Source of the DNA: Streptomyces sp. GS7
GTDB taxonomy: Bacteria > Actinomycetota > Actinomycetes > Streptomycetales > Streptomycetaceae
DNA length: 64,000 nt
NCBI RefSeq assembly: GCF_009834125.1
Contig: NZ_CP047146.1
Span: 1,667,501 to 1,731,500, forward strand
Direction of reading: 5' to 3'
Below the pieces are notes generated by a model, which saw only the letters and a program-made list of their open reading frames with translations, had not been told where the DNA came from and did no database searches. Both the position numbers and the translations under genes were made by a program. Positions 1 through 17,890 of this stretch are shown one piece after another; position 1 is the stretch's first letter; each line of letters opens with the position of its first letter.

Positions 1-110
1 TCGGCCAGGCGCGCCGCGATGAATTCCTCGTCGGCGTCCATCGCATGCCGTAGCAGGGCCAGTCCCTCAATGCCCAGTACCAGTTCCCTTACCCGGAATT
101 CACTGCCCAT
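1..110 (-). CDS. Partial CDS, N-terminus only (unassigned, possibly a methyltransferase)
   Basis: A leftward reading frame opens with ATG at 110-108 behind a strong ribosome binding site (GGAGG, about six bases upstream on the minus strand) and runs off the left edge. Only about 36 residues are visible; they begin MGSEFRVRELVLGIEGLALL and look like a soluble helical start. From memory, some actinobacterial class I SAM methyltransferases begin in a similar way, but no catalytic motif is inside the window, so function is not assigned. It is divergent from the dimethylformamidase-like gene with only 79 bp between the start codons. Confidence 0.5.
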   Translation of the reverse strand, partial: MGSEFRVRELVLGIEGLALLRHAMDADEEFIAARLA

Positions 111-189
111 TTTCTGCCTCCGTTGGCCGGAATTTTCGTTGTTGCGGACCGGTGCCGCACCTAGCATGGCGCGGGTGATCGAGGGATAT

Positions 190-1662
190 ATGGATCGTGA
201 GAGTGTGATAGCCGGACGGCGTCTCGGATTTCATGTGTCGACGGATGCCGGGGAATTCCGGGTCCGTTTCTACCGGCTGGGACGGGAACTCGCCTTCATG
301 GCGGAGACCGGCCCGTATCCGGGTGTCCCGGCCGCCGCGCCGCCGCATCCGGACGGCGTCCGGGAGCATGCCTCGCCGGCCGTGGACTGGGACTGGCCGC
401 CGTACGACCACCGCATCCCCGACGACTGGCCGCCGGGGATCTATCTCGCCCACTTCGTCGAGGAGGAGGGGAGGGGAGAGGGGGAGGAGAGGCGCGCCCG
501 GGACGTTGCGCTGTTGGACGACACGGGGATCGCCGGTTTCGGCCGGGAGTTCTTCGTGGTCCGGCCGCGGCATCCCGGCGCGGGCGGGGCCCGCATCCTC
601 TACAAGAAGTCGACCTACACCCGACACGCCTACAACCGCGCGGACCGCGCGGACGTCCAGCGGGCCGCCAGCCTCTACGACCACCCCGTCTATCAGGAGG
701 GCGGCGCCGACCGGCCCCGCGGCCATCAGCTCAGCCTGCACCGGCCCGGCGGCGTCGACGACCTCGCCTACTGGGACGCGCCGTTCATCGCCTGGCTGGA
801 ACGCAGCGGTTACGAGGTCGAGTACTGCACCGACCTCGACCTCCACGAGGACCCGGGGCTGCTCGCCCCGTACCGGCTGCTGCTGAGCGTCGGGCACGAC
901 GAGTACTGGAGCGCGGCGATGCGCGCCCAGGTCGCGGAGTTCGTGCGCGGGGGCGGCAACGTGGCGTTCCTCAGCGCCAACACCTGCTGGTGGCGGGTGC
1001 ATCCGGTGGACGGCAACAGCGCGTTCGTCTCCGACACCGACCACCACGTGGGCACCGAGTACCCGCATCTCCCGGCGACCGACCTGTGGTGGCCGGCGCC
1101 GCCGGACGGGGTCGGGGAGCCGGAGAACGCGCTCACCGGCGTCAGCTTCCGCAACGGCGGGATGTGGCCGGGGGACTGGCCCGGCGACCGGCCCCGCGAG
1201 GGGTACCGGGTCCAGCACGCCGACCACTGGGTCTACGAGGGCACCGGCCTGCGGGACGGCACGGACGGCGGCGCCCAGGACGCCCTGGGCGCCGGGACCG
1301 CGCTGATCGGCTACGAGTGCGACGGCGCGGCCTTCGCGACGGACGCGGACGGGGTGGCCCGCGCCACCGGGGCGGACGGCACTCCCGAGTCCTTCCTCAT
1401 CCTGGGGATCTACCTCCTGGATCCGGTGCACGACGACTTTCACCACCTGAGATGGGGGCACTGGAACTGCCCGGAGCGCGAGGCGGCGATCACCTCCCCG
1501 CGCGCCGCCACGATGGGGCTCTACACCGCCGGGGGCACGGTGTTCACGGCCGGAACCACCGACTGGCCGGTGGTCTGCGGCCGCGAACTGGACCCCGGGG
1601 TCGTCCGGGTGACCCGGAACGTACTGAACCGGCTGGCCGGCCCGGCTACAGCAGACCGCTGA
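190..1662 (+). CDS. N,N-dimethylformamidase large-subunit-like protein
   Basis: Encodes about 490 residues. The C-terminal two thirds match the family named after the large (beta) subunit of N,N-dimethylformamidase: KKSTYTRHAYN near residue 139, a tryptophan-rich segment, and the signature VGHDEYWS near residue 234 followed by RGGGNVAFLSANTCWWR. In the true enzyme this subunit works with a small subunit to hydrolyse dimethylformamide; no small subunit is visible nearby, so the substrate here is unknown. ATG at 190 is preferred over upstream ATGs (19, 166) because GAGGG lies just upstream and the earlier codons overlap the divergent gene. The 3' end overlaps the convergent HAD gene by 17 bp. 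No signal peptide is seen, so it is probably cytoplasmic. Confidence 0.75.
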   Translation: MDRESVIAGRRLGFHVSTDAGEFRVRFYRLGRELAFMAETGPYPGVPAAAPPHPDGVREHASPAVDWDWPPYDHRIPDDWPPGIYLAHFVEEEGRGEGEERRARDVALLDDTGIAGFGREFFVVRPRHPGAGGARILYKKSTYTRHAYNRADRADVQRAASLYDHPVYQEGGADRPRGHQLSLHRPGGVDDLAYWDAPFIAWLERSGYEVEYCTDLDLHEDPGLLAPYRLLLSVGHDEYWSAAMRAQVAEFVRGGGNVAFLSANTCWWRVHPVDGNSAFVSDTDHHVGTEYPHLPATDLWWPAPPDGVGEPENALTGVSFRNGGMWPGDWPGDRPREGYRVQHADHWVYEGTGLRDGTDGGAQDALGAGTALIGYECDGAAFATDADGVARATGADGTPESFLILGIYLLDPVHDDFHHLRWGHWNCPEREAAITSPRAATMGLYTAGGTVFTAGTTDWPVVCGRELDPGVVRVTRNVLNRLAGPATADR

Positions 1663-2380
1663 GCGCGGCCAGCGAGGAGATCCGCACGGCCCCGTCCGGC
1701 AGCGGCGGGGCCACCCCCTCGACGACGCGGTCGGCCCGCCACAGATGCGCGGCCCGCATCCCGCAGGCCAGCGGGCCCGCGACGTCCGGCTCCCACATGT
1801 CCCCGACGAACAGCGCCTGCCCGGCGGGCACTTGGCACCGTTCCAGCACCGCCCGGTAGATCAGCGGGTGCGGTTTGCGGGCGCCGGCGCGGGCCGAGGT
1901 GACCGCGGTGTCCACCAGCCCGGCCAGGCCGACGTCCTCGATGGCGCGGTCCAGGTCCCAGTACCAGTTGGAGCAGACCGCCACGCGCACGCCCCGGGCG
2001 CGCAGCTCCGCCAGCGTGTCCACGACGTCGTCGAAGAGCGCCAGCCGGAGGTCCTTCATCGCCCGGTCGAGTTCCACGGCGAGTTCGCCGGCCACCGGCT
2101 CCGGGACGCCGCAGTCCCGCGCCCGGCGCCGCAGCCGGTCCACCTCCCAGGCGCGGTAGGCCTGTTCGCTGACGGAGTGGGCGGTGTGCTCCTCGCCGTC
2201 CCGGGGCCCGACCGCCCACTGGTCGCCCCACCTTTCGGCGGCCTCGGTCAGGCCCCGGCGTGCGAACAGCGACCGGTGGCTGGGCGGCAGCGGTTCGACC
2301 AGCCGCACCAGGGTGCCGTAGAAGTCGAGGATCACGGCCCGGATGCCGCCCCGGGCGGTGTCCCCGCGGTCGTCCGGCAC
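1646..2380 (-). CDS. HAD superfamily hydrolase
   Basis: About 244 residues of a haloacid-dehalogenase-type hydrolase. Motif I is ILDFYGTL (nucleophile Asp19), motif II is the Ser in VAVCSNWYW, motif III is the Lys in GARKPHPLIY and motif IV is FVGDMWEPDVAG. The residue two after the nucleophile is Tyr rather than the Asp of typical phosphatases, an arrangement known from 2-haloacid dehalogenases, so phosphatase activity should not be assumed. The start is uncertain: GTG at 2380 lies six bases beyond the stop of the amidinotransferase gene, and translational coupling is likely because no clear ribosome binding site is present. The gene is probably co-transcribed with the amidinotransferase. 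Confidence 0.8.
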   Translation of the reverse strand: MPDDRGDTARGGIRAVILDFYGTLVRLVEPLPPSHRSLFARRGLTEAAERWGDQWAVGPRDGEEHTAHSVSEQAYRAWEVDRLRRRARDCGVPEPVAGELAVELDRAMKDLRLALFDDVVDTLAELRARGVRVAVCSNWYWDLDRAIEDVGLAGLVDTAVTSARAGARKPHPLIYRAVLERCQVPAGQALFVGDMWEPDVAGPLACGMRAAHLWRADRVVEGVAPPLPDGAVRISSLAALSGLL

Positions 2381-2385
2381 CGGCG

Positions 2386-3549
2386 TCAGTACCGTCCGTG
2401 GCGGTGCGGGAAGTAGTCCTCCAGCGTCCCGTCCCGTTCGATGTCGAAGGTCGCGCAGTGCAGCCCGCCGCCGAACGGGCCGACCGCTCGGAACGGCACC
2501 GGCACGATCTCGAAGCCGTACGAGGAGAGCTGGTCGGCCAGCGGCACTTCCTTCTCCTCGATGCACAGGGTGTTCGGGTCGAGGTTGAGCATGTTGCCGG
2601 CGAGCCACGGGCTGCAGTACGACAGCCTCGGCTGGTGCTCCCAACTGGCCGGCTGCACCGCCTCGATGACCTCCCAGTCGTTGCGGCGGAAGAACTCCAT
2701 CAGCTCGGCGTCCGCCAGCCGCTCACCGCAGTGCAGCACCAGTCCGGGGCGGAGCGGCACCCAGGTGGCGTCGATGTGCAGCGGGTGGGTGTTGGTGGAG
2801 GTCACCGCGTGCACCCGGAAGTCGGGGAAGTGGCTCTTGAGCCAGCGGTATCCGCCGCGGTTGGTGACGAACGACAGCTGGACGAACAGGTCCTTGCCGA
2901 AGCGCGCGATGTCGGCCGCGTCGAACAGCGGCTCGGCCTCGGTCAGCACCAGGTCGTAGTCGCGCACCCGGGCCAGCTGCTCCTCGGTGCCGAGGGTGTT
3001 GTAGGTGTCCCAGAAACCGGGCTTGTAGGAGGCGTCGGTCAGCCGCGGCTTGGGCGCCGCCTCCCAGCGCATGTTCTCGTCGGCGTCGAAGAGGCGCTGC
3101 AGGAGCGGCCGGTAGCAGAGGTACTCGAACCAGCGGCTGCGGTACGACATGGTCGCTTCGAGGATCTCGTTGCCGACGGTCAGCAGCAGATCGCGCGGCG
3201 GCATGCAGCCGGACATCGACTCCTGCGACCAGTCGGGCGTGCTGACCTGCTGACTGAAGTCGAGGGGGGTGGGGCGGTCGACGCGGATGCCGCGGCGGCG
3301 CAGCAACTCGGCGAAGTTGTCCAGCTGTTCGTTGGCCTCGGCGGTCATGTCGGCCGGCATCGGGCCGTAGGTGCCCAGCGGGAAGCCGTCGTCGGGGAAG
3401 TCCCGCCGGACGGCCGGTTCTGGGGCCTGTACGACCGTGTTGTCGGCGCGTCCGACGACGACATGCCGCAGGGGGTCCCAGCCGTTCCAGGAGTTGACCT
3501 TCAGGGGCCGGGTGGCCGGATCTGCGGCCGTCGTGCCGTACTCAGTCAC
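2386..3549 (-). CDS. Glycine / inosamine-type amidinotransferase
   Basis: About 387 residues, close in size to glycine amidinotransferases. These enzymes move the amidino group from arginine to an amine acceptor through a covalent Cys intermediate. The catalytic set is visible: Asp120 in PPRDLLLTVGN, His258 in THPLHIDATW and Cys365 in GGGLHCATFDI near the C-terminus. GTG at 3549 has GAAGGG about seven bases upstream. Family members serve creatine, phaseolotoxin/cylindrospermopsin and streptomycin-type aminocyclitol pathways. Which acceptor is used here cannot be read from sequence. The HAD gene follows in the same operon and a sugar importer gene is divergent, so an acceptor made from or with an imported sugar is possible (inference). 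Confidence 0.85.
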   Translation of the reverse strand: MTEYGTTAADPATRPLKVNSWNGWDPLRHVVVGRADNTVVQAPEPAVRRDFPDDGFPLGTYGPMPADMTAEANEQLDNFAELLRRRGIRVDRPTPLDFSQQVSTPDWSQESMSGCMPPRDLLLTVGNEILEATMSYRSRWFEYLCYRPLLQRLFDADENMRWEAAPKPRLTDASYKPGFWDTYNTLGTEEQLARVRDYDLVLTEAEPLFDAADIARFGKDLFVQLSFVTNRGGYRWLKSHFPDFRVHAVTSTNTHPLHIDATWVPLRPGLVLHCGERLADAELMEFFRRNDWEVIEAVQPASWEHQPRLSYCSPWLAGNMLNLDPNTLCIEEKEVPLADQLSSYGFEIVPVPFRAVGPFGGGLHCATFDIERDGTLEDYFPHRHGRY

Positions 3550-3847: not shown

Positions 3848-5131
3848 ATGGTGGGACGTGTCTCCCGTTCAGCGGCGGCCCTGGGGGCTCTCGCGGTGCT
3901 GGGGCCGGCGGCCGGCTGCGGCGGGCCGGTCGCGGCGGGCCGCTCGGGGGACCTGACGGTGTGGCTGACCGTCGACGCCCAGGAGAGCTGGCCGGATCTG
4001 GTCTCGGAAGTCAACGACCGGTTCCGCCGGACACATCCCACCGCCCACGTCACCGTGCAGTACCAGCAGTGGACCAGCAAGAACCAGAAACTCGACGCGG
4101 CACTGTCCGGGCGGCAGGTGCCCGACGTGGTCGAGATGGGAAACAGCGAGACCACCAATTACGTCGTCAACGGGGCGTTCGCACCCGTCGATCCGGCGCG
4201 GTTCGACCATTCCGGAGAATGGCTCGGGGCGCTCCGCGACGCCTGCCGCAACGACGGAAAGACATACTGCGTGCCGTATTACGCGGGCCCCCGCGTCGGT
4301 ATCTACCGCACCGATCTCCTCCATCAGGTCGGCGTGGACCACGCGCCGCGCAGCTACCCGGAGTTGCGGGCGGATCTCGACAAGCTGAAGCGGAAGTTCG
4401 GCGCCGCCGACCGGAATTTCTCCGCGTTCTACATGCCGGGCCGCTACTGGTACGCGGCGATGGCGTTCGTCAAGGACGCGGGCGGCGAGATCGCGGTGCG
4501 CAAGGACGGCCGCTGGCAGGGGTCGCTGTCCTCGGCGGCGTCCGTCAGGGGCCTGGCCGCCTGGAAGGACCTGCTCGACGCGTACTACGTGGGCGACCGG
4601 TCCAAGGACAACGGCGACGAGCCGGCGGTGGTCGGCCAGGGCCGCGTCGGCATGTTCTACGGCACCACCTGGGAGGCCAGGGCCGCGACGGACAGCAGGT
4701 CGGGCGGCAGCCCGCAACTGCGCGGAAAGTTCGCCACGTTCGCCTTCCCCGGCCCCTCGGGCGGACCGCTGCCGCCGTTCCTGGGCGGCTCCACCCTCGC
4801 CGTCCCCGCCAAGTCCGCGCACCGGGACCTCGCCCAGGACTGGATCCGGCTGTTCACCGACCGCACCTCGCAGCGCCGGCTGATCGCCGCCGACACCCTG
4901 CCCAACAACACCGCCCAGCTGCGGGAGGTGGCCGCCGGCGGCATCGACGGCCCGGCCGCGCAGGCCGCCGGGCGCGGCTGGATGACCCCCCTGGCGCCGG
5001 GGTGGGGAGCCGTGGAGAAGTCCCAGGTCCTCCAGGAGATGCTCCAGGACATCGCGACCGGGAAGCGGTCGGTGGCGGATGCGGCACAGGCCGCGGACCG
5101 CCGGATCGACGCCGTGATCAACGAGAACTGA
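3848..5131 (+). CDS. Sugar ABC transporter substrate-binding lipoprotein
   Basis: About 427 residues. ATG at 3848 has GGAGGAG upstream. The N-terminus is a lipoprotein signal peptide (basic VGRVSR, hydrophobic ALGALAVLG, lipobox-like PAAGC with the modified Cys at residue 24). The mature part is a cluster-1 extracellular solute-binding protein: LTVWLTVDAQESW, a VVEMGNSET segment and YGTTWEARAA. Such proteins carry oligosaccharides or sugars to MalF/MalG-type permeases. The two permease genes follow directly (5-bp gap, then a 4-bp overlap). The ligand cannot be deduced. Confidence 0.88.
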   Translation: MVGRVSRSAAALGALAVLGPAAGCGGPVAAGRSGDLTVWLTVDAQESWPDLVSEVNDRFRRTHPTAHVTVQYQQWTSKNQKLDAALSGRQVPDVVEMGNSETTNYVVNGAFAPVDPARFDHSGEWLGALRDACRNDGKTYCVPYYAGPRVGIYRTDLLHQVGVDHAPRSYPELRADLDKLKRKFGAADRNFSAFYMPGRYWYAAMAFVKDAGGEIAVRKDGRWQGSLSSAASVRGLAAWKDLLDAYYVGDRSKDNGDEPAVVGQGRVGMFYGTTWEARAATDSRSGGSPQLRGKFATFAFPGPSGGPLPPFLGGSTLAVPAKSAHRDLAQDWIRLFTDRTSQRRLIAADTLPNNTAQLREVAAGGIDGPAAQAAGRGWMTPLAPGWGAVEKSQVLQEMLQDIATGKRSVADAAQAADRRIDAVINEN

Positions 5132-5136
5132 CGGCC

Positions 5137-6066
5137 GTGGGGACCGCGGAGCCGCAGCCGCGCGCGCGGCGCACCGCCCGGCGGCGGGTGCTGCCCTACC
5201 TGCTGATCGCGCCGACCGTGCTCGCCCTCGCCGCCGTCCTCGGCTACCCGCTCGCCGACCTGGTGCTGCTGTCCTTCCAGGACATGACCCGCCGCGAGCT
5301 CTTCTCCGGGACCGCGCCGCCCTGGGCCGGACTGGCGCACTACCGGTCGATCCTGACCGACGGGTTCTTCTGGACGGTCCTCGGGCGCACCGTGCTGTTC
5401 ACGGTGGTCTGCGCGTCGGCGACGATGGTGCTGTCGATGCTGGTGGCGCTGCTGATGCGGCGGGTGGCGCGTTGGGTGCGGACGGTCATGACCGGGGTGC
5501 TGGTCGCCGTGTGGGCGATGCCCGTCATGGTCGCGGCGTCCATCTTCCGCTGGTTGTCGGACGCCGACGACGGCGTCGTCAACTGGCTGCTGGGACAGCT
5601 GCCCGGACTGGACTTCGGCAAGCACAACTGGTTCGAGGACCCCTGGCAGGGATTCGCCGTGATCACCGGTGTCGTCGTCTGGGGCACCGTGCCGTTCGCC
5701 GCGGTCACCCTGCACGCCGCGCTCCTGCAGATCCCCGCGGAATGGGAGGAGGCGGCCCGCGTCGACGGTGCCCGCGGACTCCGGCTGTTCCGGCACGTCA
5801 CCTTCCCCGCGGTCAAACCGTCGGCGGTTCTGGTCACCTCGCTCTGCGCGATCTGGGATTTCGGGGTGTTCAACCAGATCTGGCTGATGCGCGGCGGCCA
5901 GCCCGAGAAGGACTACTACCTTCTCGGGGTCTATTCGTTCACCGAGTCCTTCGCCGTCAACCGCTACAGCGCGGGCGCGGCCCTCGCCGTCCTCACCGTC
6001 CTCATGCTGCTGGGCGGCGCAGTCGTCTACATCCGCCAGCTCGTCCACCTGGGGGAGACCGAGTGA
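5137..6066 (+). CDS. Sugar ABC transporter permease (MalF type)
   Basis: About 309 residues with six predicted membrane helices, the first in VLPYLLIAPTVLALAAVLGY. The cytoplasmic EAA loop that docks the ATPase is visible as EWEEAARVDGARGLRLFRHV, typical of carbohydrate uptake family 1 permeases. GTG at 5137 is six bases past the stop of the binding-protein gene. The 3' end overlaps the next permease by four bases (GTGA), so the three genes form one operon. No ATPase is encoded; streptomycete importers of this class commonly share MsiK. Confidence 0.88.
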   Translation: MGTAEPQPRARRTARRRVLPYLLIAPTVLALAAVLGYPLADLVLLSFQDMTRRELFSGTAPPWAGLAHYRSILTDGFFWTVLGRTVLFTVVCASATMVLSMLVALLMRRVARWVRTVMTGVLVAVWAMPVMVAASIFRWLSDADDGVVNWLLGQLPGLDFGKHNWFEDPWQGFAVITGVVVWGTVPFAAVTLHAALLQIPAEWEEAARVDGARGLRLFRHVTFPAVKPSAVLVTSLCAIWDFGVFNQIWLMRGGQPEKDYYLLGVYSFTESFAVNRYSAGAALAVLTVLMLLGGAVVYIRQLVHLGETE

Positions 6067-6953
6067 ACACAGCACCCCGCACCGGGAACCGGGGCGTTGC
6101 GCGGAACCGGGAACACCCGAAATCCCGGCACCGCGGAAAACGGCGACCCGCACCGAACGCACTGGGCCTGCTCTTCAGCGCGCTGATGGCGTTCCCGATC
6201 TACTGGATGCTGCTCACCGCATTCCGGCCGGCCGACGAGATCCACGCCAGTCCGCCGCGGTTCTGGCCGGACCGGCTGACCCTGGAACACTTCCACCGGG
6301 CCCTCGCCACCCCCACGTTCTGGGCCAATGTGCGGGCCAGCGTCCTCATCGGTGCCGGGACCGTCGCCGTCTCCCTGCTGATCGGCACGCTCGCCGCGTT
6401 CGCCCTCGCCCGCTTTGCGTTCGCCGGGCGCAAAGCCCTGGTCGTGGTGATCCTGGGAGTCCAGACGATTCCGTCGGCCGGGCTGATCATTCCGCTGTAT
6501 CTGCTGCTCAGCGACGCCGGACTGACCGACAGCCTGCCCGGGGTGATCCTCACCTACCTCGTCTTCCTGCTCCCCTTCACGGTCTGGCTGCTGCGCGGTT
6601 TCGTCGCCGCCGTCCCCGTCGAGCTGGAGGAGGCCGCGATGACCGACGGCTGCACCCGGCTGGGCGCCTTCCGCCGGGTCGTCCTGCCGCTGCTCGCACC
6701 GGGGCTGGTGGCCACCTCCATTTACGCCCTGGTCCAGGCGTGGAACGAGTACGTGCTCGCCTATGTCCTGCTGTCCAGCAACGACAAGCAGCCCCTCAGC
6801 GTCTGGCTGGTGTCCTTCCAGACCGGCTTCGGCACCGACTACGGCGGTCTGATGGCCGGCGCCACGCTCACCGCGCTGCCGGTGGCGGTCTTCTTCGCGC
6901 TCGTCCAGCGCCGGATCTCCGCGGGCCTGGCGACCGGCGCGGTCAAGGGATGA
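6063..6953 (+). CDS. Sugar ABC transporter permease (MalG type)
   Basis: About 296 residues. After a basic N-terminal extension of some 30 residues come six predicted membrane helices beginning ALGLLFSALMAFPIYWML. The EAA motif is ELEEAAMTDGCTRLGAFRRV. With the preceding MalF-type gene it makes the channel of a binding-protein-dependent sugar importer. GTG start overlaps the previous stop. It is the last gene of the importer operon; the radical SAM gene starts 87 bp later on the same strand and could share the transcript. Confidence 0.88.
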   Translation: MNTAPRTGNRGVARNREHPKSRHRGKRRPAPNALGLLFSALMAFPIYWMLLTAFRPADEIHASPPRFWPDRLTLEHFHRALATPTFWANVRASVLIGAGTVAVSLLIGTLAAFALARFAFAGRKALVVVILGVQTIPSAGLIIPLYLLLSDAGLTDSLPGVILTYLVFLLPFTVWLLRGFVAAVPVELEEAAMTDGCTRLGAFRRVVLPLLAPGLVATSIYALVQAWNEYVLAYVLLSSNDKQPLSVWLVSFQTGFGTDYGGLMAGATLTALPVAVFFALVQRRISAGLATGAVKG

Positions 6954-7040: not shown

Positions 7041-8153
7041 GTGACGTTCGACCGTCTCGACCTGGTGTCCAAGCTCTACCAGCCGACCGGCTGGCCGCGG
7101 ATCCTCGAAGCCGCCTCCGGAGGACCCTCCAGCGGCCCCCTGGTCGTGGACCTGGACCCGACGACCTTCTGCGATCTGGCCTGCCCGGAATGCATCAGCG
7201 GAAAACTGCTCAACCAGGGGCGCTTCACCCCCGAACGGCTCGCCGAACTGGCCGGGGAACTGGTGGAGATGAAGGTCAGGGCGGTGGTCCTCATAGGGGG
7301 CGGCGAACCGCTCGCCCACCGCGGCACCCGCACGGTGCTGCGGGTCCTCGGCGAGGCCGGCATCGCCATCGGCGTGGTCACCAACGGCACCCTGATCCGG
7401 CAGAACCTCGCCGAACTGGCCGCCTACGCCTCATGGGTACGGGTCTCCGTCGACGCCGGCACCAGCGACACCTACCGGCTCTTCCGGCCCGACCGCAAGG
7501 GCCGCAGCGTCTTCGACAAGGTCATCGGCAACATGCGGCTCCTCGCCGAGGCCAAAGCGGGCGCGCTCGGCTACTCGTTCCTCGTCATGACCCGCCAGGA
7601 ACCGGACGGCAGCGTCGTCAGCAACCACCACGAGGTCTTACAGGCCGCCGAACTCGCCCACGACATCGGGTGCGACTACTTCGAGACCAAGGCGATGTTC
7701 GACGACGGGCACCACGTCATCCAGGTGCCGGACGGCATCCTCGCCTCTGTGGAGGAGCAGCTCGCCAAGGCGCGGCAGTGGACGGGCGACGGCTTCGAGA
7801 TCGTCAACTCCTCGACCCTGACGTCCCTGCGGAACCGGGTGGGACCCGTCCAGGAGAAGGACTACCACCGCTGCCCCGTCGCCGAACTGCGCACCCTGGT
7901 GACGCCGTCGGGCGTCTATGTCTGCTCGTACCACCGGGGCAACGCCGGGGCCCGCATCGGCGACGCGGTGACCGAGAGCCTGGCGGACATCTGGCGCACC
8001 TCGGACCGCGGCATCGTCGACCCGAGCCGCGACTGCCGCTTCCACTGCGCGCGCCACCGCTCCAACCTCGAACTCGACAAGATCAGGTCCGGAACGGCGG
8101 CGGGGACCCTGGGGGTACCGGAGGCCGGGAGCGAGGAGGACCCGTTCATCTAG
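7041..8153 (+). CDS. Radical SAM protein with SPASM/twitch-like C-terminal cysteines
   Basis: About 370 residues. GTG at 7041 has AGGAG ten bases upstream. The 4Fe-4S SAM cluster motif C-x3-C-x2-C is at residues 44, 48 and 51 (TTFCDLACPEC), followed by the glycine motif VLIGGGEPLAH. Four further cysteines (278, 295, 332, 336) near the C-terminus suggest an auxiliary iron-sulphur cluster as in SPASM/twitch proteins that modify peptides or sugars. No precursor peptide is visible next to it. The codon at 7638-7640 is TTA, so translation should depend on the bldA tRNA. It follows the sugar importer and ends before a strong terminator shared with the convergent kinase gene. The substrate is unknown; the sugar-enzyme context favours a carbohydrate or nucleotide-sugar (inference). 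Confidence 0.85.
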   Translation: MTFDRLDLVSKLYQPTGWPRILEAASGGPSSGPLVVDLDPTTFCDLACPECISGKLLNQGRFTPERLAELAGELVEMKVRAVVLIGGGEPLAHRGTRTVLRVLGEAGIAIGVVTNGTLIRQNLAELAAYASWVRVSVDAGTSDTYRLFRPDRKGRSVFDKVIGNMRLLAEAKAGALGYSFLVMTRQEPDGSVVSNHHEVLQAAELAHDIGCDYFETKAMFDDGHHVIQVPDGILASVEEQLAKARQWTGDGFEIVNSSTLTSLRNRVGPVQEKDYHRCPVAELRTLVTPSGVYVCSYHRGNAGARIGDAVTESLADIWRTSDRGIVDPSRDCRFHCARHRSNLELDKIRSGTAAGTLGVPEAGSEEDPFI

Positions 8154-8284
8154 CGGAACCGTTCATCCGGCGGACCCGCTCATCCGGCCTCCCGCCCCGG
8201 GCAGTTGGCAGGCCGGCGGCCGCCGGAACCGCCGGCTCGCCGGGGCGGGACCGCCGGCCCCCGGTCCCGCGCACGGAACGGCCC

Positions 8285-8319
8285 GGGGCGCCGGCCCCGC
8301 CCTACGGGGCCGGCGCCCC
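8285..8319. terminator. Bidirectional hairpin terminator
   Basis: Perfect 14-bp inverted repeat GGGGCGCCGGCCCC / GGGGCCGGCGCCCC with a 7-base loop, between the convergent radical SAM and GHMP kinase genes. It lacks a clear T-tract, as is common in high-GC actinomycetes. Confidence 0.75.
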
Positions 8320-8330
8320 ACCGGCCGCGT

Positions 8331-9335
8331 CTACGGGGCCGGCGCCGCCGCCAGCTCCGGCGCCAGGCCCGCCGCCGCCCGGGTCACGAGCACCCGCGCC
8401 CGCGGATGCGCCGCCCCGAGAGCCCGCCGCAGCCGGGCGGCCGCCTCCTCCGCGTCGGCGGCCGGGCAGACCCCCACCAGCGCCCCGCCCCCGCCCGCCC
8501 CGCTCAGCTTCAGCGGCAGGCCGGCACCGCGCAGCGCCACCTCCCGCAGCTCCTCCAACAGCGGCGTGGACATGCCCTGGAGGTCGCGCATCGCGGCGTG
8601 CGCCTCGCCCATCGCACCGCCCAGAGCGGCCGGATCACGGCGGCGCACCGCCTCCCAGACGGCGGCGGACGCCGCGTCGCACCGCTCCCGGTACGCCGCG
8701 AGCCGGGCATCCCCGGCCGCCAGCTGCGCGCGCACCGAACGGATGTGGTCGCCGGTGTCCTTCCTGGTGGCCGAGTCGAGCACCACCACCGCCCAGTCGT
8801 CCGGGAAGTCCACCCGGCCCACGATCTCCGGCAGGCCGCTCGTCCGCCCGTCGAGCAGCAGCAGACCACCCGCGATCACCGCGAGGTGATCCATCCCGCC
8901 GCCGTTGAAGTACCCGAACTCGAACTCGTACGCCCACTGGGCCAGCGTCCGCGCGGACAGCGGCGCACCCGGCGCCGCCACCCCGGCGAACGCCCGGAAC
9001 AGCGCCACGATCAGCGCCGTCGACGACGACAGGCCGCTCGCCGCCGGCGCGTCGCTGCGCACCGTCACGGCCGGCGGGCGGGCCCCCGCTCCCGGCAGCC
9101 GCCGGCGCAGGAACGCCCACACCTCCTCCGCCCAACTGCCCGCCCCACCACCGGAACCGGACCCGCCCGGCGGCCGGGCACCCGGCGCCCGTACCGTCAC
9201 CGACGTGGTCAGATCCAGCGCCAGACTGACCGACCGGCCGCCCAGCCAGTCCAGATCCTCCCCGGACAGGCACGCCCGGCACGGCACCGCCGCGCCCCCC
9301 GCCGGAACCCCTCGAACCGCTCGCGTCATCGTCAT
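8331..9335 (-). CDS. GHMP-family sugar kinase
   Basis: About 334 residues. GHMP signatures are present in order: substrate-loop LSGEDLDWLGG (residues 23-33, a variant of the usual GEHxDYxGG), ATP loop APAASGLSSSTAL, a GGGMDHLAVIAGG segment that may carry the catalytic Asp, and the C-terminal SGAGGGGALVG loop. The family includes galactokinase, arabinokinase and heptose-7-phosphate kinase, so phosphorylation of a sugar hydroxyl is expected. The start at 9335 overlaps the stop of the NUDIX gene (ATGA), showing translational coupling. With the epimerase two genes upstream it looks like part of a sugar-activation route. Confidence 0.82.
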   Translation of the reverse strand: MTMTRAVRGVPAGGAAVPCRACLSGEDLDWLGGRSVSLALDLTTSVTVRAPGARPPGGSGSGGGAGSWAEEVWAFLRRRLPGAGARPPAVTVRSDAPAASGLSSSTALIVALFRAFAGVAAPGAPLSARTLAQWAYEFEFGYFNGGGMDHLAVIAGGLLLLDGRTSGLPEIVGRVDFPDDWAVVVLDSATRKDTGDHIRSVRAQLAAGDARLAAYRERCDAASAAVWEAVRRRDPAALGGAMGEAHAAMRDLQGMSTPLLEELREVALRGAGLPLKLSGAGGGGALVGVCPAADAEEAAARLRRALGAAHPRARVLVTRAAAGLAPELAAAPAP

Positions 9336-9826
9336 CGGGCCTGGAACTTTCCGGTCGAGCCGAACTCCCGGAACATCTCCAGGACCACAGCGGTGGGCGG
9401 ATGCAGCGGTCGCGGTGGATCCGCGAGCGCCCGGAACTGCGCACCGGTCACCTCGTCCCGGCCCGGGGACAGCTCCCCGGACCAGCGGCGGGCCCAGAAA
9501 CACAGCGCGAAGCAGTGCGTGACGTCCCCGTTGGGGTACGTCAGGGTGTGCACCTCCGGGTCGGACAGCGACCCGAAGGCTTCCAGGTCGGCCGGCGCCA
9601 CCCGCAGACCGGTCTCCTCCGCCAGCTCCCGCACGGCCGTCCCCGTGAAGTCGCTGCCCTCCTCGCACGCCCCGGCCGGCAGCTCCCACACGCCGTTGTC
9701 GGCGCGCCGCTGGAACAGCCCCCGGCCGGCCCCGTCCAGCAGCAGGACCTGCGCGCCCGGGACCAGCAGCGGCCGGCTGCCCACCTGCTGCCGCAGGGCC
9801 CAGAGATACGAGCCGACATAACTCAC
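9332..9826 (-). CDS. NUDIX hydrolase
   Basis: About 164 residues from GTG at 9826, chosen because AAGGTG lies seven bases upstream. The NUDIX box GACEEGSDFTGTAVRELAEE continues TGL. The metal-binding REL-x-EE core is intact, but the first Glu of the consensus (seven residues after the Gly) is Ser here, followed by Asp. NUDIX enzymes cleave nucleoside diphosphates linked to another group, for example nucleotide sugars. The gene sits between an epimerase and a GHMP kinase, with a 59-bp gap to the epimerase and a 4-bp overlap with the kinase, so a nucleotide-sugar substrate is a reasonable inference. Confidence 0.8.
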   Translation of the reverse strand: MSYVGSYLWALRQQVGSRPLLVPGAQVLLLDGAGRGLFQRRADNGVWELPAGACEEGSDFTGTAVRELAEETGLRVAPADLEAFGSLSDPEVHTLTYPNGDVTHCFALCFWARRWSGELSPGRDEVTGAQFRALADPPRPLHPPTAVVLEMFREFGSTGKFQAR

Positions 9827-9885
9827 CTGTACGTCACCTTGCTTCCGTTTCACGGGTATTCGTCCGCCTTCCCGGCGGCAGGCTG

Positions 9886-11016
9886 TCATGCGGCCGGCCC
9901 GGCGGCCAGCCACCCCGGCACCGCATGGGGTGTCGCGGACAGCCACCGCACATACCGCTCCACACCCGACCGGACGTCGATCCGCGGCTGCCAGCGCAGC
10001 AGTTCACGGGAGTGCGCGGTCGCGGCGTACCCCCCCAGCGGATCGCCCTGCGGCAGGGGGGTGGTGACGAACCGCGAGGCAGGGAAGTGCGGCGCGATCA
10101 GCTCACCCACCTCGCGCACCGAAGTCGGCACACCGGTACCGACGTTGACCGTCTCCCCGGCCATCCGCTCCTCGATCAGGGCCAGCGCGGTGGCCGCCGC
10201 GACATCCTCGACGTGCACCAGGTCCCGCACCTGCACCCCGCCCCCGTTGAGCCGCATCGGGCGGCCCAGCCGGGCCTGCATGGACAGCCAGGCCACCATC
10301 CACGAATGGCTGCCGGGTTTGGGGATCTGCGGATCGCCGTACACGGAGAAGTAGCGCAGCACCGCGTACTCCGGGGTGTCCGGGCCGCCCAGCAGCAGCC
10401 GCGTCTGGTGCTCGGCCCACAGCTTGGAGTTGGCGTACACCGACACCGGGAGCAGCCGCTGGTCCTCGCGGAACACCTGCGGCCCCCGTACGGAGGGATC
10501 GCCGTCCCCGTACACCGCCGCCGAGGACACCAGCACCAGCCGCCGCACCGTGGACGCCGCGGCCTCCTCCAGCACCACCTGGGTGCCCTGCACATTGGCC
10601 CGGAAGGCGATATCGGGCCGACGGGTGCAGGCGGCCACATCGGCGTACGCCGCGGCGTGCACCACATAGTCGGCGCCGTCGAGCACCGTACGCACCGCTT
10701 CGCGGTCGCAGATATCCCCGACCACCGTCTTCGCCCCGAGACCGTCCACCCCGAACAACGAGGTGTGCGCCGATTCGGGATAGGCGTCCAGCCGGTCCAG
10801 TACCGTCACCTCGGCATCCGCCCGGCGTAATAGGGCAACCAGCCGGCTGCCCACCAATCCGGCGCCACCGGTCACCACCACACGGGCGTCCCGCAGTTTC
10901 TCCAGCCGGGCCGCCACCGATTCCCCCGGATCGCCGCACGCCGCACTTCCCACGCCATTACCGGTGCCGATACCGATACCACCGGTGTTACCAGTGCCGT
11001 TCGCCGTCGCCGACAT
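9886..11016 (-). CDS. NAD-dependent epimerase/dehydratase (extended SDR)
   Basis: About 376 residues. ATG at 11016 has a GGGAGAGGG ribosome binding site. After a Gly/Thr-rich leader of about 40 residues comes the NAD fold VVVTGGAGLVGS, then VSSAAVYG and the catalytic Tyr/Lys in YANSK, as in UDP-glucose 4-epimerases and nucleotide-sugar dehydratases. It acts on a sugar nucleotide, most likely by C4 oxidation. The codon at 10830-10828 is TTA (a Leu in VALLRRA), predicting bldA control. It starts a leftward operon with the NUDIX hydrolase and GHMP kinase and is divergent from the glycosyltransferase fusion across 180 bp. Confidence 0.88.
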   Translation of the reverse strand: MSATANGTGNTGGIGIGTGNGVGSAACGDPGESVAARLEKLRDARVVVTGGAGLVGSRLVALLRRADAEVTVLDRLDAYPESAHTSLFGVDGLGAKTVVGDICDREAVRTVLDGADYVVHAAAYADVAACTRRPDIAFRANVQGTQVVLEEAAASTVRRLVLVSSAAVYGDGDPSVRGPQVFREDQRLLPVSVYANSKLWAEHQTRLLLGGPDTPEYAVLRYFSVYGDPQIPKPGSHSWMVAWLSMQARLGRPMRLNGGGVQVRDLVHVEDVAAATALALIEERMAGETVNVGTGVPTSVREVGELIAPHFPASRFVTTPLPQGDPLGGYAATAHSRELLRWQPRIDVRSGVERYVRWLSATPHAVPGWLAAGPAA

Positions 11017-11196
11017 GGAACCCTCTCCCTGTGCACGAGACCGCCCGACCTGGGCCAGCGGTCAGCATGTCGGTCGCGGAATGCCGCTACCAGAGCGCGA
11101 TTTCGGCAGTCTTGCCGCGCTCCCGGCCACCGCCGTACTGTCCGGATCCACCTGTGCCGGAATGCCCGGCACGGCGAAAAGCGCCGGAGGAAAACG

Positions 11197-13044
11197 ATGA
11201 CGCGATATCGGCTGAGCGGTGCCGTGATGACCCACCCGAAACGCCGCGCGGCAGCGGAACGCCTGGCGCAGGCCGCCCCGCCGGGCGCATTACGGGTCGT
11301 CATGGACCCGGACCCGGCCGGGAAACCGTCCGTTTTGCGGACCGCGCTGTGCGCCTGGTCGGCGATCGAGGACGGCGCCACTCATCAACTCGTCGTCCAG
11401 GACGACATGATCCTCTCCGATACGTTCTTCACCCGCGCCCGGATGGCGGTCGAAGAGATGCCGGACGCGGCCCTCGCGCTTTTCGCGCTCTGGGACTCCA
11501 GAAACGGCGCCGCGGTCCGATTCGGCGCGCTGGCCGGAGCGCGCTGGGTGGCCGCCGTCAACGAGTACTTTCCGTGCGTCGCCATCATTCTGCCCAGGGA
11601 AGTCGCCGCCGGATTCGTGGCTTTCGGCCGACGCCATCTTGACAGCTGGCCCGACGACATCCTGATGAACCACTACTTACGCGCGCACGGAATCCCCGCA
11701 TACGTTTCGGTACCCAGCCTCGCCGAACACGAGGACCACGGCAGCATCTCCGGCAATGCCTTCCGCGGACCGCGCCGTTCGGTCTGCTTTCTGCCCTCGG
11801 ACGTTCCCGGTCGCGAAGACGCCCGGCTGAGCGGACTGCGGGTGCTGCCGTTCTTCAAACACGGCGTCGCGCAGTGCGCGGTACGCGCCGGCGCCCCCGG
11901 CGACGACCCCGGCCACTGGCTCCATCTCACCTGCGCGCAATACCTGGAGGGCTGCGGCGTACGCCCCGGAAGACCGCAACCGGCCATCGTGGGAATGGCC
12001 GAAGCGAGCGGCCCCGCCGCGGCCACCGGGACCTGGCTGACGGCCTTCACGATGGGATTCGTCCAGCAGCGGGACGGCCACCGCACCACCGCACTCGACG
12101 GCGGCACCGCCCCCGCCCCCGACCCCGCCGTCCTCGCCGAGGCACTGGCCACCGTGGGCCCAGGGGGCATCAGTTACGCCCGGTCCGAGGAGCGCATCGC
12201 CGAACTGCGGGCGGAACTCGCGCAGATCACCCTCGCCGGCGTCGCGGCCGGCCGCGAGGCGGCCGACCGGCAGCGGGCCCGCCCGGCCCGCCCCCATACC
12301 GCAGCCCCCCTGCGGGTCGGCGTGCTCGGGACCGCGACCCCGCTCACGGAACACCTCGTACGGGGCCTGGCCGACGCCGGACACCGGATCACCCTCCTGG
12401 GGCGCCCCACCGCCCCCGACGAGCCCACCGCCCCCGCTCGGCCCGCCGGCCGCCCGTACGACGCGCTGCTCGACCTGACGGCCCTGACCCCCCAGCACCC
12501 GCCGGTTCCCGCCGCCGCCACTGCCGCCGACATCGTCTGCGGCACCTCCTCCACCCCCACCCTCACCCTCAAGTACCGGGACACCGCGGGGCAGTTCAGG
12601 GACGTGACCGTCCGCGTCGGGGAGCTGTACGGCCCCGGCTGCCCGCACGACACGCGGATCGGCCGCCTCGTCTGGGACGCGTTGCGCAGCTACCCGCTGA
12701 CCGTCGAGGACCCGGACGCGGAGCTGCGCCCCCTGCACGTCGGTGATCTGGTCGGCGCGCTGTCCGCGATGCTCCGCACGCCCCCGCCGGACGGGACGAC
12801 CGGGCTGGCCGACGCCCCGGTCACCGCCGCCGAACTGGCAACGGCGGTACAGACGGCGGTCCGCCCCGTACCGCTCGCCGAGGCACCGCCGACAGCGTCC
12901 GCGGCACCCCCGCGCCGTACGGAGGAGGCGCCCTGGCCCCCGGCCCCGCCCGGCTGGAAACCCGCCACGGACCTCGTCCACGGGCTGCACACCCACGCCC
13001 AGTGGCTGGCCTACGAGGGCATCCATCTCGCCCTGGACGTCTGA
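11197..13044 (+). CDS. Glycosyltransferase-like protein fused to an SDR/epimerase-like domain
   Basis: About 615 residues; ATG at 11197 follows GGAGGAAAACG. Residues 1 to about 250 resemble a small glycosyltransferase fold of the family 25/DUF type: SGAVMTHPKRR, acidic LVVQDDMILSD and WPDDILMNHYL. From about residue 365 a second part reads like a shortened Rossmann epimerase (VGVLGTATPLTEHLVRGLAD, then RVGELYGPG and LHVGDLVGALSAML), but the Gly-rich loop is poor and the Tyr-x3-Lys pair is not seen, so it may only bind. Two TTA codons (11290-11292, 11677-11679) fall in the first part. I do not recognise a named product; the activity assignment is tentative. Confidence 0.65.
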   Translation: MTRYRLSGAVMTHPKRRAAAERLAQAAPPGALRVVMDPDPAGKPSVLRTALCAWSAIEDGATHQLVVQDDMILSDTFFTRARMAVEEMPDAALALFALWDSRNGAAVRFGALAGARWVAAVNEYFPCVAIILPREVAAGFVAFGRRHLDSWPDDILMNHYLRAHGIPAYVSVPSLAEHEDHGSISGNAFRGPRRSVCFLPSDVPGREDARLSGLRVLPFFKHGVAQCAVRAGAPGDDPGHWLHLTCAQYLEGCGVRPGRPQPAIVGMAEASGPAAATGTWLTAFTMGFVQQRDGHRTTALDGGTAPAPDPAVLAEALATVGPGGISYARSEERIAELRAELAQITLAGVAAGREAADRQRARPARPHTAAPLRVGVLGTATPLTEHLVRGLADAGHRITLLGRPTAPDEPTAPARPAGRPYDALLDLTALTPQHPPVPAAATAADIVCGTSSTPTLTLKYRDTAGQFRDVTVRVGELYGPGCPHDTRIGRLVWDALRSYPLTVEDPDAELRPLHVGDLVGALSAMLRTPPPDGTTGLADAPVTAAELATAVQTAVRPVPLAEAPPTASAAPPRRTEEAPWPPAPPGWKPATDLVHGLHTHAQWLAYEGIHLALDV

Positions 13045-13084
13045 CCGGTCAACCGCCGAGACCTGTACGACGGGTCAGGTGGCC

Positions 13085-13101
13085 AGGGCCGGACAGGCCC
13101 T
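13085..13101. terminator. Weak hairpin between convergent genes
   Basis: AGGGCC-GGACA-GGCCCT stem of six base pairs, directly at the end of the family 2 glycosyltransferase gene and 40 bp after the fusion gene. It is short, so function as a terminator is only possible. Confidence 0.3.
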
Positions 13102-13975
13102 AGATGACCGGCGGCCGTCCCAGCCGCGTCATCCGCCACACCGTGCGCCAGCGCATCGGCCGCCGCCGTCCGCAGGGGGTCCGCACACCCTCCGCGAACC
13201 CGGCGGCCCATGCCCGCATGCCCGCCGCCGAGCGGCTGCGGACGGCCGTCAGGCCCGCCCAGACACCCAGATACAGCGGCACCAGCAGCACCGGCAGATG
13301 GCGCTTCGCCAGCCAGACGCGGTTTCTGGCCACCATCCGGTGGTAGACCGCGTGCCGGGTGGGCGAGGTGTACGGGTGCTGGAGCACGATCTCCGGCGCG
13401 TAGCGGATGCGCCAGCCGTCGTCCAGCGCCCGCCACGCCAGGTCGGTCTCCTCGTGTGCGTAGAAGAACTCGTCCGGCCAGCCGCCGATCCGGTCCAGCA
13501 TCGGCACGGACAGTGCGTGACCGCCGCCGAGGAAGGTGGTGACCAGGCCGCCGCGCTGCGGGTCGCCGACCCGCAGCCGGGGGACGTGGCGGCGCTGGGT
13601 CCGGCCCCGCTCGTCGGCGATGCGGAAGCTCACGACGCCCAACTGCGGGTCCCGCTCGTACAGTTCCGCCAGCCGGCTGAAGACGTCCGGGCTGATCAGC
13701 AGCCCGTCGTCGTCCAGGTCGACCACCACGTCCAGCTCGCCGAGCTTGCGCAGCTCGTCCAGGGCGACGTTCCGGCCACCGGAGACCCCCAGGTTCTCGC
13801 TCAGCGACAGGCCGGTCACGCCATCGGGAAGCGGGGGCAGCGGCGAGCCGTTGCCGACGACCACGATGTGCGTCGCCGGGAGGTCCTGCTTGGCCACCGA
13901 ATCCAGCAGCTCCTGGAGTTCGGCGGGGCGGTTCCCCATGGTCAAGATGGCGACGCCTACGCGCAGATGACGCAC
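13100..13975 (-). CDS. Family 2 glycosyltransferase
   Basis: About 291 residues from GTG at 13975, with GGACGGAG upstream. GT-A features: VGVAILTMGNRPAELQELL at the N-terminus, ENLGVSGGRNVAL, the metal/nucleotide motif VVDLDDDG, and YAHEETDLAWRA holding the likely catalytic acidic pair. A hydrophobic stretch near the C-terminus (PVLLVPLYLGVWAGL) may associate with the membrane. Such enzymes add a sugar from a nucleotide donor to a polysaccharide, lipid or small-molecule acceptor. It ends convergent with the fusion gene. No TTA codon is present, unlike three neighbouring genes. Membership in the same pathway is inferred from position. Confidence 0.85.
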   Translation of the reverse strand: MRHLRVGVAILTMGNRPAELQELLDSVAKQDLPATHIVVVGNGSPLPPLPDGVTGLSLSENLGVSGGRNVALDELRKLGELDVVVDLDDDGLLISPDVFSRLAELYERDPQLGVVSFRIADERGRTQRRHVPRLRVGDPQRGGLVTTFLGGGHALSVPMLDRIGGWPDEFFYAHEETDLAWRALDDGWRIRYAPEIVLQHPYTSPTRHAVYHRMVARNRVWLAKRHLPVLLVPLYLGVWAGLTAVRSRSAAGMRAWAAGFAEGVRTPCGRRRPMRWRTVWRMTRLGRPPVI

Positions 13976-16678: not shown

Positions 16679-16862
16679 CCGTCGCACCGCCTCTGTAGCC
16701 GTCGCACCGCCTCTGTAGCCGTCCCACCGCGCGTCGGACTTCCCACTACGTCGGACTTCCCACTACCGAGCCACAGGGCTACGGAGTCACCGAGCCACAG
16801 AGCTACCGAGCCACAGAGCCACAGAGCTGCGGAGCTACCGATCTACCGATCTACTGGGCTAC
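16679..16862. repeat. Short tandem repeats between phosphatase and mbl
   Basis: A 20-bp unit gtcgcaccgcctctgtagcc is repeated at 16681-16700 and 16701-16720; a 17-bp unit containing gtcggacttcccacta is repeated at about 16732-16765; then a run of degenerate cgagccacagag and ctaccgat units reaches the end of mbl. No reading frame or single stable hairpin was found. It may be replication-slippage sequence serving as a weak terminator. Confidence 0.7.
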
Positions 16863-17890
16863 GGAGCCATCGGATCGAGGTGCAGGGGCTGCACCTTGCC
16901 CTCGATCATGGCGCCCAGCCCCTGCACCGCGCAGGTGCCGGGCCGGTCCGCGATGTGCACCGGCATCGTCGTCGCCTCGTGGATCATCGGCTCCAGCCCC
17001 GGGATCACCGCGCTGCCGCCCGCCAGCATGATGCCGCGCTCCCCGAGATCGGCCACGAGGTCCGGCGGGCAGCGCCGCAGCACCGCCCCGATACCGTCGA
17101 GGATCGCGGTCAGCGGCGTGATGATCGCGCGCCGTACCCTCTCGGTGTCGACGTGCACGGAGCGCGCCAGTCCACTCACCACATCCCGCCCGTGCACCTC
17201 GGTGGTGCCCGGCGTCAGCTCGCCCTCCCCGGCGAACATCAGATGCAGCGGGCGTACCGACTGGCCGGGCAGCATCAGCTCGTGGTGCAGCCGCAGATGC
17301 TGGATGACCGCGTGATCGATGGCATTGCCGCCCACGGGGACGGTCTCGGCGGCCACGATGGAGCCGAGGGACAGCACCGCGACCTGGGTGGTGCCCGCGC
17401 CGCACACCACGATCATCGTCGCCTCCGGCTGCTCCACCGGCAGCCCGCAGCCGACGGCGGCGGCGACCAGCGTGTCGACCAGTTCGACCCGCCGCGCACC
17501 CAGCCCGGTGAGGGTCTCCACGGCCGCCCGCTGGGCCAGCGGCTCACTGCCGTACGGCAGGCAGACCGCGGCCCGCATACTCGGCCGGCGCCGCCACGTC
17601 TTGCGCAGCTTGTCGCCGACCAGGTGGCGCAGCAGCCGCTGCGCCATGTCGATGTCCACGACCGTCCCGTTGGAGACCGGCCGGACCACCTTGATGTAGT
17701 CGGGGGTGCGGCCCTCCATCACCTCGGCCTGAGCGCCGACGGCCAGCAGCGAGCCGGAACGGGTGTTGACCGCGGCGACGGTCGGTTCGTCGACGACCAG
17801 CCCCTGGTTCTTGACGTACACCCTGGTCCGGGCCGCACCGAGGTCGACGGCGGCCGAGCAGCGCCGCAGTTGGGCGAGGCAGATGGTCAT
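16859..17890 (-). CDS. mbl: MreB-like actin homologue (Mbl)
   Basis: About 343 residues from ATG at 17890, with GGGGAGGA upstream. MreB/Mbl features: phosphate-1 loop AAVDLGAARTRVYVKNQGLV, RPVSNGTVVDID, the conserved LVDTLVAAAVGCGL, the phosphate-2 region MIVVCGAGTTQVAVLSLG and adenosine motif GIMLAGGSAVIPGL. It is a membrane-associated actin-like filament protein; in Streptomyces, Mbl acts in spore wall assembly rather than rod shape. No mreC/mreD or rodA is adjacent, which separates it from mreB. The symbol rests on this context and on remembered location near the fab operon in S. coelicolor. Confidence 0.8.
   Translation of the reverse strand: MTICLAQLRRCSAAVDLGAARTRVYVKNQGLVVDEPTVAAVNTRSGSLLAVGAQAEVMEGRTPDYIKVVRPVSNGTVVDIDMAQRLLRHLVGDKLRKTWRRRPSMRAAVCLPYGSEPLAQRAAVETLTGLGARRVELVDTLVAAAVGCGLPVEQPEATMIVVCGAGTTQVAVLSLGSIVAAETVPVGGNAIDHAVIQHLRLHHELMLPGQSVRPLHLMFAGEGELTPGTTEVHGRDVVSGLARSVHVDTERVRRAIITPLTAILDGIGAVLRRCPPDLVADLGERGIMLAGGSAVIPGLEPMIHEATTMPVHIADRPGTCAVQGLGAMIEGKVQPLHLDPMAP

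Follow-up and report, generated by a model that had tools for sequence, protein, structure and literature searches.

A conserved, TTA-enriched 14-gene cluster of Streptomyces as a candidate locus for the biosynthesis of allosamidin or a very close allosamidin

Allosamidin is a sugar-like molecule that blocks chitin-digesting enzymes, i.e., a chitinase inhibitor. According to the accessible text of PMC6269690, it joins two N-acetylallosamine units to a cyclopentitol that carries a fused dimethylaminooxazoline. Isotope feeding described there traced the carbons of the cyclopentitol ring and of allosamine to glucosamine, and the (CH3)2N-C unit to the methyl group of methionine and the guanidino group of arginine, along a route that probably passes through a 6-aldehyde intermediate. 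The same text states that about 5% of random Streptomyces isolates make allosamidin, and names strain AJ9463 and S. halstedii MF425 as producers. An allosamidin gene cluster was not found in open-access full text, including the available parts of PMC6269690, PMC6691824, PMC9824969 and PMC5979581, subscription papers and preprints lying mostly outside this search. The present analysis concerns a 64,000-nucleotide stretch of Streptomyces sp. GS7 (the window; NZ_CP047146.1, positions 1,667,501-1,731,500 of a 9.07 Mb single-contig genome) and a conserved 14-gene cluster, most of which lies within it and which includes a radical S-adenosylmethionine (SAM) enzyme. With moderate confidence, this cluster is proposed to make allosamidin or a very close allosamidin. 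Coordinates are those of the window, negative values lying to its left.

The initial annotation of the window had grouped six neighbouring genes, encoding the radical SAM enzyme, a GHMP kinase, a NUDIX hydrolase, an epimerase of the short-chain dehydrogenase/reductase (SDR) type, a glycosyltransferase/SDR fusion and a GT2 glycosyltransferase, and had placed a sugar importer and an amidinotransferase just upstream. All six genes are present where they had been reported, and Pfam agrees for five of them (Radical_SAM, GHMP N- and C-terminal domains, NUDIX, Epimerase and GT2), but the boundaries of the group had to be redrawn. An alignment of 15 relatives of the radical SAM enzyme was used to scan one genome per species and yielded 59 loci; 26 of these (L009-L033 and L064), whose radical SAM enzymes are 76-96% identical, were compared by tblastn with the proteins of the window and of its left flank. 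The unit that recurs is a cluster of 14 genes, encoding from left to right a glycosyltransferase-like protein (GTb), a GNAT-like protein, a methyltransferase, a DMFA2-like protein, a haloacid dehalogenase (HAD) superfamily hydrolase, the amidinotransferase, the solute-binding protein and two permeases of the importer, the radical SAM enzyme, the kinase, the NUDIX hydrolase, the SDR and the glycosyltransferase/pseudo-SDR fusion. The amidinotransferase and the importer are thus near the six genes, as reported, but inside the conserved block rather than upstream of it. GT2, in contrast, is an optional accessory gene (13100..13975, reverse strand; PF00535), which follows the fusion in only six of the 26 loci besides the window.

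The genes for the GNAT-like protein, methyltransferase, DMFA2-like protein, HAD hydrolase and amidinotransferase each occur in 23 of the 26 loci, and in the identical 23; the binding protein was also found in 23, the kinase in 25, and the NUDIX hydrolase, SDR and fusion in 24 each. Two loci of the set, L012 and L019, are short contigs, the kinase, NUDIX and fusion matches of L024 are fragmentary, and in L033 the left block and the importer are inverted and displaced. GTb, at no less than 54% identity, ends the cluster on the left in 16 of the 26 loci, several others reaching too little leftward or holding GTb elsewhere. Genes further left are common to pairs of loci at most, as judged from five genome stretches and a plasmid, and in the genome of the window the genes left of the GNAT-like gene resemble housekeeping genes by eye. 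On p1, a linear plasmid of Streptomyces sp. BHT-5-2, all 14 genes lie together in a single 15.6 kb block (L089:16121-31746), and the plasmid search placed the cluster on a linear replicon of 2.8 Mb that lacks annotation. Streptomyces clavuligerus, S. noursei, S. natalensis and S. tsukubensis are among the species that carry the cluster.

Co-occurrence across the genus points in the same direction. Among 392 Streptomyces genomes searched, a close radical SAM relative (E <=1.5e-192, 78-100% identity) was found in 11, or 2.8%, and two further genomes hold relatives at 53-54%. The identical 11 genomes hold a close amidinotransferase (E <=5.9e-233, 84-100%; next genome 4.5e-174, 66%) and GTb (E <=1.3e-99, 52-100%; next genome 5.0e-65, 42%), although the carriers are related, so that the identity of the three sets does not convert into a simple probability. 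The fusion protein gives a weaker match in all 11 carriers as well, and has distant relatives in non-carrier genomes. This co-occurrence and the conserved synteny support the suggestion that the genes form one system. Independent occurrence was not seen for close orthologues; more distant relatives of each gene do occur in other contexts, including amidinotransferases at 64-66% identity in three genomes that lack the close radical SAM enzyme (contexts judged by eye). Three of the 11 carriers have GTb outside the cluster, namely the genome of the window (G000, at a distance of about 300 kb), G240 (about 36 kb) and G207 (on another contig), and its retention despite this separation argues for a joint function with the cluster.

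The window genes carry four TTA codons, as first counted, one in the radical SAM gene (7638-7640), one in the SDR gene (10828-10830) and two in the fusion gene (11290 and 11677). In the window and the 26 loci together (27 sequences), TTA makes up 69 of 11,428 leucine codons in genes of the cluster families versus 5 of 5,111 in the remaining called genes there, a 6.2-fold enrichment (Fisher p 8e-7, an optimistic value because the kinship of the genomes is uncorrected). At least one TTA is present in 26 of 29 sequences, and the gene that bears it most often is that of the radical SAM enzyme, where its position depends on the group (residue 56, 100 or 200), for a total of 17 of 27 orthologues. 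Leucine is kept at these three residues in 27, 26 and 27 of the 27 orthologues, respectively. This recurrent placement suggests selection rather than drift, and the proposed link to bldA is strengthened, as far as codon usage can tell, by an enrichment beyond chance that recurs across relatives. Elsewhere in the window, an MreB/Mbl-like gene (16859-18151; Pfam) has in its long open reading frame a TTA at 17939-17941, which is upstream of the likelier start at 17890 and hence probably outside the gene.

The enzyme classes encoded by the cluster correspond to the chemistry of allosamidin. For the transfer of an amidino group, the 387-residue amidinotransferase (2386..3549, reverse strand) matches AGAT (3e-70), SxtG (2.8e-69), HsvA (2.9e-58) and StrB1 (6.5e-55) in the PDB, and the cysteine of its GGGLHC motif aligns with the active cysteine of AGAT. 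For the dimethylamino group, a SAM-dependent methyltransferase (Methyltransf_11, 5e-25) has its 5′ end at 1..110 on the reverse strand, with an ATG at 110 and the rest extending to about -750, and is a candidate N-methyltransferase. Beyond it lies the GNAT-like gene (about -1511 to -747), whose match to Acetyltransf_1 (E 0.0032) is below the cut-off of that family. Two further proteins of the left block are the DMFA2-like protein (166..1662, forward strand; PF20254 DMFA2_C, 4.9e-64), which matches N-acetyl-(R)-beta-phenylalanine acylase in the PDB at 1.1e-7 over residues 204-279 only (76 residues), and the HAD hydrolase (1646..2380, reverse strand; PF00702, 3.5e-20). In the window and in most orthologues, the latter has the motif DFYGT rather than DxDGT, the second aspartate of the usual phosphatase motif being replaced.

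The importer is encoded on the forward strand by the binding-protein gene (3848..5131; SBP_bac_1/8, PDB sugar-binding proteins at 6e-21) and the two permease genes (5137..6066 and 6063..6953; BPD_transp_1, the second searched from 6117). The start sites of these three genes (3848, 5137 and 6063) and of the kinase gene (9335) are corrected ones. The GHMP sugar kinase (8331..9335, reverse strand; PF00288/PF08544) is closest in the PDB to D-glycero-D-manno-heptose 1-phosphate kinase (2e-9) and galactokinases (2e-8). The NUDIX hydrolase (9332..9946, reverse strand; PF00293, 2.8e-17) was rightly described as having an altered box: the first glutamate is replaced in each of the 24 orthologues whose box can be read, the 25th (L024) being fragmentary, and the REUxEExGU part is intact.

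For the epimerisation at C3, the candidate is the extended SDR (9886..11016, reverse strand; PF01370), a uridine diphosphate (UDP)-sugar epimerase type with intact GxxGxxG and YANSK motifs, whose best PDB match (6wjb, 5e-30) is named a UDP-N-acetylglucosamine (UDP-GlcNAc) C4-epimerase. Relatives acting on C3 redox chemistry appear only in a variant locus. In L034 (Catenuloplanes) and L035 (a metagenome-assembled genome, MAG), the radical SAM enzyme, amidinotransferase, DMFA2-like protein, methyltransferase, GNAT-like protein, fusion and kinase recur, with the HAD hydrolase in L034 only, and both loci carry a Gfo/Idh/MocA-SDR fusion, assigned by Pfam for L034 and by the clustering of the L035 protein with it. 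The Gfo/Idh half of the L034 protein has a sugar 3-ketoreductase as second match (1.2e-10) and a glucuronide 3-dehydrogenase at 2e-8 among the 53 matches listed, relatives whose family assignments are suggestive of C3 sugar chemistry.

Two glycosylations are required, and two related glycosyltransferase-like proteins are present in all 11 carriers. The fusion protein (11197..13044, forward strand) combines a glycosyltransferase-like N-terminus with a QDDM motif and a degenerate SDR. The reported fusion gene exists and the C-terminus of its AlphaFold2 model (mean predicted local distance difference test, pLDDT, 78.9) matches NDP-sugar epimerases, in agreement with an epimerase-type SDR fold, but the protein has no Pfam match, and YxxxK is missing from the SDR half in 22 of 22 sequences and the GxxGxxG string in 19 of 22 (present in three), so that it looks like a pseudo-enzyme. 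GTb is a shorter relative of the N-terminus of the fusion. Its model (pLDDT 82.1) gave weak GT-A-type matches in a fold search, the best at E 0.012 and none significant, and it owes its glycosyltransferase label to this weak resemblance to GT-A enzymes and to a DxD-like motif. Distant relatives of the fusion, 34-35% identical to the L028 copy, were also seen on two large plasmids (L090:11110-15172 and L091:11102-16616), where they follow a PhyH-like dioxygenase near UDP-sugar dehydrogenase and MFS (major facilitator superfamily) genes by eye, probably another small sugar pathway.

The radical SAM enzyme (7041..8153, forward strand; PF04055, 2.9e-16) has a CxxxCxxC motif and belongs to a family with at least 120 relatives at 52-96% identity. 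The alignment of 15 sequences shows invariant cysteines C44, C48 and C51, C211 further up, and C278, C295, C332 and C336 in the C-terminus. SPASM domains bind two auxiliary clusters through about seven C-terminal cysteines. The four invariant ones found here suffice for one auxiliary cluster, which makes the enzyme, initially described as SPASM-like, Twitch-like rather than a full SPASM protein. The family recurs in a second gene context, in 18 loci (L038, L039, L041, L043-L045, L048-L056, L058, L065 and L066; e.g., L038:8192-18425) whose radical SAM proteins belong to it at 48-55% identity. Pfam identifies a flavin monooxygenase among its partners there; an MFS exporter, a GT2 and a GH3 glycosidase/glucosidase were recognised by eye, often with a GH1, in some loci with a sugar importer and in eight of the 18 with a PIG-L-like deacetylase. 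In these loci, tblastn found no relative of the window amidinotransferase. We know of no product of this second context. The radical SAM gene was also seen beside cupin and GHMP kinase genes (L062:10067-12465 and L063:10088-11549, the L063 kinase by tblastn) and with genes for a kinase, a NUDIX hydrolase and a GalT-like protein (L037:10007-17081). Tentatively, the enzyme may found an unrecognised Twitch-type family that makes cyclopentane pseudo-sugars from glucosamine derivatives, with allosamidin as one product and sister clusters, including that of L051 in the second context (a MAG labelled Deltaproteobacteria), making undescribed glycosidase-inhibitor pseudo-sugars.

From these classes we infer a possible biosynthetic route. 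The DMFA2-like protein would act as an amidase that frees the 2-amine of a GlcNAc-derived precursor by amide hydrolysis (N-deacetylation), and the amidinotransferase would transfer an amidino group to it from arginine. The cyclopentitol could arise by oxidation of C6 and C1-C5 closure, both driven by the radical SAM enzyme with or without redox partners. The guanidino group would cyclise to the aminooxazoline, which the methyltransferase would then dimethylate. The SDR may supply UDP-N-acetylallosamine by C3 epimerisation of UDP-GlcNAc, the fusion and GTb would attach the two allosamine units, and the kinase, NUDIX and HAD enzymes may handle phosphates or nucleotide sugars. Finally, the importer may recover the product or a chitin fragment. 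The origins established by isotope feeding, as given in the accessible text of PMC6269690, match the enzyme classes of the cluster, and the carriers make up 2.8% of the sampled genomes versus about 5% producers among isolates, which together favour allosamidin.

Several observations weigh against this assignment. A purely aldol ring closure needs no radical SAM chemistry, which leaves the role of this enzyme a guess; N-methylation cannot be read from the fold of the methyltransferase, and the labels GNAT-like and glycosyltransferase come from weak matches. The GTb of the window genome is 52-57% identical to that of nine of the other ten carriers and 87% identical to that of G207. Next to it (L085:8493-13287, about 300 kb left of the window) are a Glyco_transf_7C-type glycosyltransferase, a kinase/phosphotransferase-like gene (by eye) and a carbamoyltransferase; this divergence and these neighbours suggest that GTb may serve another pathway there, and the genes beside it might also decorate or extend the product. 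The Streptomyces-type SDR was not found in the examined DNA of L034 and L035, the former ending inside the kinase gene so that SDR and NUDIX genes may lie beyond, and the L034 Gfo/Idh matches are weak, the top one of the 53 listed being an uncharacterised oxidoreductase and many others inositol or unrelated dehydrogenases. In L027, which is cut on the right, the importer, radical SAM and kinase genes are present, whereas all five left-block genes (GNAT-like through amidinotransferase) are missing from their vicinity, and no importer was found in L028. No product is reported for any carrier in the literature searched, and the genome scan with the radical SAM alignment returned no locus titled S. 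halstedii. An operator scan allowing two mismatches found no DasR/GlcNAc operator in the window cluster, and near-matches in the amidinotransferase/importer promoter in only two of 29 sequences (L018 and L033). A link to the chitin regulon through DasR was therefore dropped as unsupported; footprinting of this intergenic region in 23 sequences revealed promoter-like conservation only.

Other products would share part of this chemistry. Trehazolin, made by Micromonospora and Amycolatopsis, has one sugar and no N-methyl group. A cyclic-guanidine (aminooxazoline) pseudo-oligosaccharide of the trehazolin type, in which a sugar-derived aminocyclopentitol with an arginine-derived isourea is glycosylated by the cluster enzymes, would suit the amidinotransferase, radical SAM and glycosyltransferase-like proteins equally well, and the recurrence of the radical SAM family with other partner sets makes several related products likely. 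The methyltransferase kept in 23 of the 26 loci, the two glycosyltransferase-like genes and the producers of trehazolin, which are not mainly Streptomyces, nevertheless make such a product rather unlikely. A streptomycin-like guanidino aminoglycoside, for which a six-membered inosamine would be the acceptor of the amidinotransferase, appears very improbable: StrB1 is among the PDB relatives of the enzyme but is outscored by AGAT, SxtG and HsvA, and by Pfam the 14 proteins of the cluster include no inositol dehydrogenase, cyclitol synthase, pyridoxal phosphate (PLP) aminotransferase or dTDP-deoxysugar enzyme.

The cluster could instead make an undescribed sugar or sugar-nucleotide product without a cyclopentitol, the radical SAM enzyme being a sugar epimerase or dehydrogenase and the amidinotransferase guanidylating an amino sugar. 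The likeness of the radical SAM core to cytosylglucuronate decarboxylase (1.4e-9 over profile positions 45-162) and the several other contexts of the family are in line with such a product. It is nonetheless improbable, since Pfam finds no nucleobase, nonribosomal peptide synthetase or deoxysugar families among the cluster proteins, and since allosamidin better explains the combination of amidino transfer, methylation, two glycosyltransferase-like proteins and a UDP-GlcNAc-type SDR. Tunicamycin-like and blasticidin-like readings were rejected because the radical SAM matches cover the core domain only. Streptomyces amakusaensis produces nagstatin, a glycosidase-type inhibitor, and has a GTb homologue (P0262), which prompted a nagstatin reading; this was also rejected, as nagstatin contains a single sugar-like unit and lacks an arginine guanidine. 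A literature search pairing pactamycin with radical SAM returned no match.

Overall, the idea of a dedicated, bldA-linked pathway to an unusual, probably guanidylated sugar product stands on synteny, co-occurrence and TTA enrichment, with other boundaries than those first drawn. If the assignment to allosamidin is true, it opens ring closure, aminooxazoline formation and allosamine supply to direct testing, and likely allosamidin producers can be listed from public genomes. It would also provide a first function for the radical SAM family and another for the unclassified glycosyltransferase-like family, and the recurrent TTA placement in the radical SAM gene would link the making of a chitinase signal to bldA-mediated developmental control.

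Streptomycin-type clusters have an amidinotransferase of the same superfamily (StrB1), but the window cluster lacks their cyclitol, aminotransferase and dTDP-sugar genes and has a radical SAM enzyme, a DMFA2-like protein and a pseudo-SDR fusion. In the blasticidin S pathway, the cytosylglucuronate decarboxylase BlsE is weakly matched by the window radical SAM enzyme, over the core of its structures only; the NCBIfam BlsE score is 38.7 against a cut-off of 400, and the window cluster has no cytosine chemistry. Tunicamycin-like clusters (TunA/TunB) also have a radical SAM gene next to genes for a glycosyltransferase and an extended SDR, and the SDR part of the fusion has TunA among its fold matches. 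The window cluster differs in having an amidinotransferase and a methyltransferase, and no acyl carrier protein among its Pfam hits. The second radical SAM context shares the radical SAM family and differs in its partners (flavin monooxygenase, MFS, GT2 and GH3). The initial view that no described pathway has this gene set holds at the gene level in the open-access literature searched, but not for the chemistry, which matches allosamidin as described in the accessible text of PMC6269690. As no gene is tied to the allosamidin pathway in that literature, the likeness is one of enzyme classes and not of sequence identity: each need of the pathway finds a class in the cluster that could serve it, the radical SAM enzyme being no more than a candidate for ring closure.

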